DNA of 64,000 nucleotides from positions 62,001-126,000 of the forward strand of contig PNMZ01000003.1 in the NCBI GenBank assembly GCA_013823945.1, written 5' to 3'. A program made the position numbers and the translations under genes. Source of the DNA: a bacterium (lineage in GTDB: Bacteria > Armatimonadota > Fimbriimonadia > Fimbriimonadales > Fimbriimonadaceae). Of the stretch, positions 1 to 20,790 are shown piece after piece. Each line of letters opens with the position of its first letter. Position 1 is the first letter of the stretch. The notes beneath the pieces were generated by a model that saw only the letters and a list, made by a program, of their open reading frames with translations, ran no database searches and was not told where the DNA came from.

Positions 1-491
1 TGAAGTACAAGGGTAAGTCCATTGCGGACGTTTTGGAGATGACGATTGAGGAGGCGTGCGAGTTTTTTAAGCCGATTCCGAAGATTTTCCGGAAGCTTGA
101 GACGTTGCTGCAGGTGGGTCTTGGCTATATTCGGATGGGGCAGGCGGCGACGACGCTTTCGGGAGGGGAAGCTCAGCGGGTGAAGTTGGCGACCGAGCTT
201 TCGAAGCGGTCAACGGGGAGGACGCTTTACATATTGGATGAGCCGACGACGGGGTTGCATTTTGAGGATGTCCGGCGACTCCTTGCGGTGTTGCATCAAT
301 TGGTCGATGCGGGGAACACGGTTTTGGTGATTGAGCACAATTTGGATGTGATCAAGACAGCGGATTGGTTGATTGATATGGGTCCGGAAGGGGGCACGGG
401 TGGGGGGACGGTTGTCGGGATGGGAACGCCGGAGGAGATTGCGAAGATTCCTTCGAGCTATACAGGGCAGTATTTGGCGAAGTTGTTGTAG
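1..491 (+). CDS. uvrA: UvrA excinuclease ABC subunit A, C-terminal part
   Basis: This is the last ~162 residues of the UvrA ATPase, the DNA-damage sensor of nucleotide excision repair. The reading frame is open from base 3, so the gene starts left of the window. The ABC signature ([12 protein letters not shown]), Walker B ([12 protein letters not shown]) and the H-loop region ([16 protein letters not shown]) of the second ATPase domain are all visible, and the tail ends normally at KLL. The lead-in [12 protein letters not shown] is typical of UvrA just before this domain. A weak 7-bp inverted repeat lies at 492-538 without a U tract. No defect is seen; only the N-terminal ~80% is missing because of the window edge. 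Confidence 0.96.
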
Positions 492-19388: not shown

Positions 19389-20561
19389 ATGGCTCTGAGC
19401 AAGAAGACGATTCGTGATTTGGATTTGGCGGGGAAACGGGTTTTGATGCGTTGCGATTTTAATGTTCCGCTGGACGGAGATCGGATCACGGATGATATTC
19501 GGATCACGGCGAGTTTGCCGACGATCCAATTTGCTTTGGAGGCGGGGGCGAAGGTGGTTTTGTGCTCACACTTGGGGCGACCGAACGGGGAACGCAACAT
19601 GAAGTATTCGCTTGCGCCGGTTGCGAAGCGGCTTTCGGAATTGTTGGGATTCGATGTTGTTTTGGCGGGGGATTGCGTAGGTGAAGCAGCAGAATCGGCG
19701 GTCGCTGGTTTGGATTCGGGAAAGGCGGTTTTGCTGGAGAACGTACGATTTCATGGTGCGGAAGAGGAGAATGATCCGGAATTTGCGGCTCAGTTGGCGA
19801 GTTTGGCTGATGTGTTTGTGAACGATGCGTTTGGAACAGCTCATAGGGCTCATGCTTCGACCGAAGGGGTGGCGCATTTGCTTCCGGCGGTGGCGGGCTT
19901 TTTGATTGAGAAAGAGATTGACTTTTTGGGCAAAGCAGTTGAGGATCCGAAGCGACCGTTTGTGGCAATTATGGGGGGAGCGAAAGTCAAGGATAAGATT
20001 CAAGTCATTGACTCGCTTTTGCCCAAGGTTGATCAGCTTGTGATTGGCGGCGGGATGGCGTATACGTTTTACAAGGCTCAGGGTTGGGAGATTGGTCAAT
20101 CTCTTCTTGATGCGGATTCGATGGATTATTGCCTTGAGGTGATGAAAACGGGCAAGATTGTCTTGCCGACGGATACGGTGGTTGCGCCCACTTTTGCGGC
20201 AGATGCCCCGCCGACAGTCGTTGCGAGTGATGCGATTCCGAGCGATCAGATGGGGCTCGATATTGGACCGGATACGGCCGAGCGATTCCGAGAGATTGCG
20301 GCGGGAGCAGGAACAGTTTTGTGGAACGGCCCGATGGGGGTTTTTGAGTTTGATGCGTTTGCGAATGGGACACACGAGGTTGCCTTGGGATTGACGGAGT
20401 GCCAGGGAATTTCGATTGTTGGCGGAGGAGATTCGGCGGCGGCAATTGAGAAATTTGGTTTGGCGGATCAGGTGAGCCATGTTTCAACGGGCGGCGGTGC
20501 TTCATTGGAATTCTTGGAAGGAAAAGTACTTCCAGGGATTGCGGCATTGCTTGACGCTTAG
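19389..20561 (+). CDS. pgk: Phosphoglycerate kinase
   Basis: A 390-residue glycolytic kinase transferring phosphate from 1,3-bisphosphoglycerate to ADP. The substrate site is in [14 protein letters not shown], followed by [61 protein letters not shown] and the C-terminal [13 protein letters not shown] and [14 protein letters not shown]. Length is normal for bacteria. No gap or other glycolytic gene is adjacent. A candidate selenoprotein gene follows 61 nt downstream. Confidence 0.97.
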
Positions 20562-20622
20562 TGAGGGTCATGGATTTCTGCGCGTTCGGAACTTTGTCAG
20601 CTCGAATCGGCTTTACAGAGAC

Positions 20623-20790
20623 ATGGTTGTGAAATTGGTGGCTTCTACTCTGATTGGCGGTGCAATGGGATTTGGTTATCTGATGCTGATGAAGGCCGGA
20701 AACCCTGGCTGACTTACTTGCCAAGTACCGGCGGTGCCGGTCGTTGCGGGATTGGTTTTGGGGTTGATCGCGGGATTAACAGGTAGATAA
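20623..20790 (+). CDS. Candidate small membrane selenoprotein with U-x-x-C motif
   Basis: A 55-codon frame from ATG 20623 to TAA 20788 contains a single in-frame TGA at 20710-20712 (codon 30). Read through, it gives a TM helix (VVKLVASTLIGGAMGFGYLM), then KAGNPG-U-LTC-QVPAVP, then a second TM helix (VVAGLVLGLIAGLTG). Sec30 and Cys33 form a U-x-x-C redox pair between two helices. This layout resembles small two-helix membrane proteins of the DUF6132 type, which carry Cys residues and a Pro at this spot; that family match is tentative. A perfect hairpin with SECIS geometry follows the TGA. Without recoding the product would be a 29-residue single helix. Confidence 0.75.
20727..20741 (+). promoter_or_regulatory. 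SECIS-like hairpin downstream of UGA codon 30
   Basis: ACCGGC pairs perfectly with GCCGGU around a GGU loop. The loop begins 21 nt after the UGA and its first base is G. This is the same design as the hairpin at 2740-2756, in an unrelated gene. Confidence 0.72.

Follow-up and report, generated by a model that had tools for sequence, protein, structure and literature searches.

A putative two-helix membrane selenoprotein family of Armatimonadota, resembling DUF6132

The locus and its reading frame

The window analysed here is a single stretch of 64,000 nucleotides from the genome of a Fimbriimonadaceae bacterium (phylum Armatimonadota). The features considered in it are the following, all on the + strand:

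19389..20561, +: upstream neighbour, a 390-codon ORF taken from the ORF list and regarded as separate from the system
20623..20790, +: candidate selenoprotein gene of 55 codons plus a TAA stop, with two predicted membrane helices (residues 2-26 and 37-53)
20710..20712, +: UGA codon, putative selenocysteine 30; among the members read, 63 have TGA and 23 have Cys in this column, and the form tracks SelB
20719..20721, +: Cys33, likely redox partner of Sec30 (U-x-x-C); a single such partner, on one side or the other, is present in 82 of 86 members
20727..20741, +: SECIS-type hairpin ACCGGC-GGU-GCCGGU, its loop 20 nt past the UGA, conserved in the Sec forms of Fimbriimonadales

Translating 20623-20790 (+) with TGA read as U yielded the product MVVKLVASTLIGGAMGFGYLMLMKAGNPG-U-LTCQVPAVPVVAGLVLGLIAGLTGR, followed by the terminal stop. 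The initial annotation of this DNA had described a 55-codon frame interrupted by TGA 20710 alone, and the translation confirmed it: the TGA at 20710-20712 is the sole internal stop. The Cys that had been placed three residues past the TGA, in a Gly/Pro loop between the helices, was also found at 20719-20721. The two-helix membrane protein proposed at the same time agrees with the AlphaFold2 model, which predicts the helices at the residues listed above with a modest pLDDT of 67; the membrane topology, judged by charge, is ambiguous. Having only 55 codons with a TGA in mid-gene, such a gene is easily missed by standard gene calling.

The upstream neighbour, which we take from its sequence to be a phosphoglycerate kinase, has a homologue upstream of the gene in 6 genomes of the genus. 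A window-wide scan for further conserved in-frame TGAs, made against the relative G006, was swamped by antisense and alternative-frame matches. An element resembling CGTAnnnT was noticed about 10 nt before the start codon of many homologues, among them those at loci L013, L014, L017, L018 and L024; it resembles that of leaderless promoters.

Conservation of the TGA column and its match to SelB

A tblastn search of 151 relatives recovered the protein in 7 of 7 congeners, with one internal TGA each, and in many further genera. A profile built from 56 members was run over 291 genomes of the phylum and gave 93 matches, among them TGA forms from many families, and eight loci came from a profile search of genome contigs with a subset of the alignment as query. 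We read 30 distant loci, so that the total compared was 63 TGA and 23 Cys members. Among the loci read, all the TGAs share one column, and every homologue without TGA carries Cys there and no other residue. A TGA in this column occurs in all 7 congeners and in about 68 Armatimonadota genomes; both the homologue counts and the SelB counts given below cover Armatimonadota genomes. The invariant columns common to all three alignments are G12, G16 and residue 30. A Cys homologue at position 30, named as decisive in the initial annotation, was therefore seen in 23 of the genomes read, and homologues, rather than ending at the TGA, continue beyond it. Searches of plasmids and phages for the family returned no match. 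One sequence titled Methanoregulaceae archaeon (JADZEW010000008.1, L142) has a Fimbriimonadaceae-type locus, and the title looks wrong for the bin.

Selection on the coding sequence was estimated from close pairs. In ten pairs, pN/pS was 0.086 for the codons preceding the TGA and 0.152 for those following it. Beyond the terminal stop, the relation was reversed, pN exceeding pS (0.20 vs 0.10, six pairs). From the low ratio after the TGA and this reversal, we conclude that the part following the TGA evolves as a protein. Residues 31-55, whose lack of conservation would have counted against the initial annotation, are thus constrained, with a pN/pS of 0.15.

The Sec machinery, the possible absence of which had also been raised, was found complete in the host genome: SelB (350 bits), SelA (433 bits), SelD (355 bits) and a tRNA-Sec with anticodon tca (UCA). 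The host SelD has an in-frame TGA of its own in a CAGU motif (LVKCAGUASKLG; L148:1501-1640), and is probably a selenoprotein as well. Counting SelB as present when a match passed the curated cut-off, the Sec form occurs in 63 genomes with SelB and 5 without, and the Cys form in 1 with and 22 without (Fisher 2.5e-15, kinship ignored). This tally includes the TGA genomes G129, G202, G203 and G206, taken from the search table rather than from read loci. The same association is visible inside genera: each of g4, g6, g20, g22 and g131 contains a genome with SelB and the Sec form next to SelB-less genomes with the Cys form. These within-genus differences offer a natural series for studying the advantage of Sec over Cys in one tiny protein. 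The TGA forms without a SelB match over the cut-off are those of G043, G096, G198, G203 and G233. G043 and G096 do have a tRNA-Sec, and several of the five genomes are incomplete drafts; G233, which is 95% complete, remains an exception. So does G055, where SelB is present together with a Cys form.

These results bear on two other ways of reading the TGA. It could be an ordinary stop, at which a 29-residue peptide or a longer upstream frame ends, the rest being untranslated or a pseudogene remnant. Standard annotation would indeed end there, as does an ATG-started frame of the ORF list (20479-20712), and the local folding, taken alone, is nothing out of the ordinary. Yet the residues encoded beyond the TGA are kept throughout the phylum under purifying selection, homologues without the TGA read straight through with a Cys, and the choice between TGA and Cys follows SelB, so that we consider an ordinary stop extremely improbable. 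Read-through without selenium, whether through an altered code, leaky suppression or the insertion of Trp or Cys, exists in other bacteria, but it has next to no credibility here: in 28 of the 63 Sec genes the terminator is itself a TGA, which gives the codon two meanings inside one gene and speaks against an altered code; the homologues read have Cys and never Trp at the aligned position; and the form tracks SelB with the downstream hairpin kept.

The hairpin downstream of the TGA

Bacterial selenoproteins carry a GG-loop hairpin 16-37 nt downstream of the in-frame UGA (PMC13188914). The window hairpin, with 6 bp, a GGU loop, a spacing of 20 and -8.7 kcal/mol, satisfies the published bSECIS constraints (PMC13188914). 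It is the one given in the initial annotation; the statement that it begins 21 nt after the TGA was off, this being the distance to the loop, which opens at the 21st nucleotide, while the stem starts at the 15th. Folded alone, this part of the window gives an unremarkable structure (z -1.5), and single-sequence folding consequently proves nothing by itself. It is the comparison across genomes that takes the predicted hairpin far beyond chance.

A bSECIS scan of all families pooled gave a weak contrast (p 0.0015), because the distant families lack a fixed hairpin. Fimbriimonadales were analysed separately, a split chosen after the result of the pooled scan. In this order (families f1 and f5), at least 5 of the 6 inner pairs were formed at exactly 20 nt in 38 of 41 Sec forms, against 0 of 18 Cys forms. 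Since the stem overlaps the codons of PAVPV, its conservation was assessed by randomising synonymous codons. The Sec forms had 5.41 stem pairs, to be compared with 3.64 +/- 0.14 expected and a maximum of 4.12 over 1000 synonymous randomisations, and the first Pro codon of PAVPV was CCG in 38 of 38 Sec forms. The closing pair C-G is replaced by U-A in G002 and G011, a compensatory change. In G001, a codon insertion has moved the motif, and a different stem, GGGACC-GGC-GGUUCC, occupies the same spacing. The three exceptions among the Sec forms (G069, G009 and G096) have other hairpins nearby. Most stem pairs being invariant, true compensatory change is confined to a few genomes. Of the conservation with compensatory changes proposed as a check in the initial annotation, the first half is thus borne out by a strong synonymous constraint and the second in those few genomes only.

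In the families outside Fimbriimonadales, a fixed hairpin was not clearly found. In the distant families, a second stem, GCAANCC, would pair +13..19 with +51..57 (5.82 pairs vs a synonymous expectation of 4.80), but it is about equal in the few Cys forms of these families; the case for this longer stem as a SECIS element is no more than suggestive.

From these comparisons, the locus very probably encodes a selenoprotein. We consider it almost certain that ribosomes would decode UGA 20710 as selenocysteine, by means of SelB, tRNA-Sec and the downstream GG-loop hairpin.

In selD, a hairpin TGGCGGA-GGUUC-UCCGCCA, read by eye, seemingly lies about 32 nt past the TGA.

Relation to known families and possible function

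Pfam and NCBIfam scans of the single window protein gave sub-threshold matches only. NCBIfam offered no selenoprotein model for the relatives (best 25 of 33 families) or for the distant members (among the matches listed). The distant members led to DUF6132 (PF19628), a Pfam family of unknown function for which the open-licence literature gave nothing relevant. Its cut-off of 23.2 bits is passed by two distant TGA members, L112 (30.8) and L124 (24.8), the genome of L112 having been found by the profile A1 of the window family (E 3e-9), and 23 of 30 distant members match it at E<=1. The window protein (L001) has no DUF6132 match among the matches listed and the Fimbriimonadales branch is also below the cut-off, hence we describe the protein as DUF6132-like and do not file it as a member. 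The two have in common a length of about 60 residues, a Gly-rich two-helix hairpin and a Cys motif in the loop; they differ in that most Armatimonadota members would have Sec as the reactive residue, and in that the partner Cys mostly comes after it, not before. Similarity below the threshold was seen to XapX (TIGR03510) and DUF1427 (PF07235) in 10 and 6, respectively, of 56 relatives (best 1e-4), with no match for the window protein and none seen among the distant members. TsoX (NF045809, HSGNPxU), which shares with the window protein the string GNPxU and UxxC, was rejected as a candidate: it has no match in the host genome at E<=10, and GNP is not conserved in the window family.

None of the 119 prokaryotic selenoprotein families catalogued in May 2026 corresponds to the present one, and DUF6132 and XapX are likewise absent from that catalogue. 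With the catalogued UxxC selenoproteins (thioredoxin, glutaredoxin, DsbA-like proteins and others; PMC13188914, Table 1), the family shares the in-frame UGA, the GG-loop hairpin, the UxxC motif and the existence of Cys homologues in genomes without Sec. It differs from them as a predicted 55-residue membrane hairpin without a thioredoxin fold, outside the 119 families. We therefore describe it, on comparative grounds, as a new putative selenoprotein family, the protein being a two-helix membrane hairpin and its relatives the probable Sec branch of a family resembling DUF6132. Outside what had been catalogued, it recurs across a poorly studied phylum.

We then considered the residues around the Sec/Cys column. 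An extra Cys lies at most 6 residues after Sec/Cys in 60 of the 86 members, before it in 22, on both sides in 0 and on neither in 4. The Sec forms without a partner Cys within 6 residues are those of G098, G020 and G096. This distribution points to a likely two-residue redox pair, whose partner may stand on either side of Sec/Cys. Sec30, in the inter-helix loop, would probably form a selenenylsulfide with the nearby Cys, which in the window protein is Cys33.

The gene neighbourhood was examined in the relatives. In Fimbriimonadaceae, the recurrent neighbours, presumably hemW, argS or pgk from their sequences, are uninformative, and thioredoxin does not adjoin the gene in this family, which is that of the window. 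In f8 and f38, a thioredoxin gene (PF00085 in those scanned) ends 7-31 nt upstream; in G211, one lies 186 nt downstream; and in G139 and G221, a thioredoxin is fused behind the Cys form (L135: thioredoxin 89 bits). OsmC-type genes, identified by PF02566 in the two genes scanned, are located about 0-67 nt downstream in f5, f10 and G233, and 484 nt downstream in G234. On account of these thioredoxin neighbours, thioredoxin fusions and OsmC neighbours, our first choice is a thioredoxin-linked redox function at the membrane. We give an even chance to the protein acting as a thiol/selenol oxidoreductase embedded in the membrane and trading electrons with thioredoxin, its possible targets there being peroxides or other oxidised thiols. 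For DUF6132, this would provide a definite clue to function, in the form of a thioredoxin-linked Sec/Cys redox pair.

A narrower version of this function is a strict membrane peroxidase, in which the loop Sec would reduce lipid or organic hydroperoxides alongside OsmC and be recycled by thioredoxin. OsmC/Ohr proteins include hydroperoxide reductases, and OsmC genes stand directly downstream in f5, f10 and f38, with thioredoxin upstream in f8 and f38. This reading draws on neighbourhood, however, no peroxidase fold or catalytic motif having been recognised, and we regard it as rather unlikely. Less likely still would be a protein carrying or sensing sulfur or selenium species, for instance a small transporter subunit whose Sec binds per-sulfide or selenide. 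The catalogue does contain a Sec form of the YeeE/YedE thiosulfate transporter with a GUxSG motif, and the DUF6132-like members have Gly/Ser-rich loops around Sec/Cys; but no YeeE/YedE model match was found among the matches listed, and no sulfur-transport gene was recognised in the recurrent neighbour clusters.

The family as a whole, spread through the phylum, might be a minimal two-helix membrane selenol/thiol relay, the Sec branch of the DUF6132-like family, passing electrons from thioredoxin to or across the membrane, with a partner Cys that has switched sides in evolution; we think this somewhat less probable than not. Such a small relay would be much simpler than DsbD or CcdA.

Two further observations were made on the neighbours. 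The upstream thioredoxins of L114 and L126 would, provided that their longer starts are correct, carry hydrophobic N-terminal extensions; the one in L126 resembles a lipoprotein signal, a point relevant to the side of the membrane on which these thioredoxins act. In f14 (L124 and L136), a second small ORF of about 110-130 residues, apparently membrane-bound, lies downstream on the same strand.
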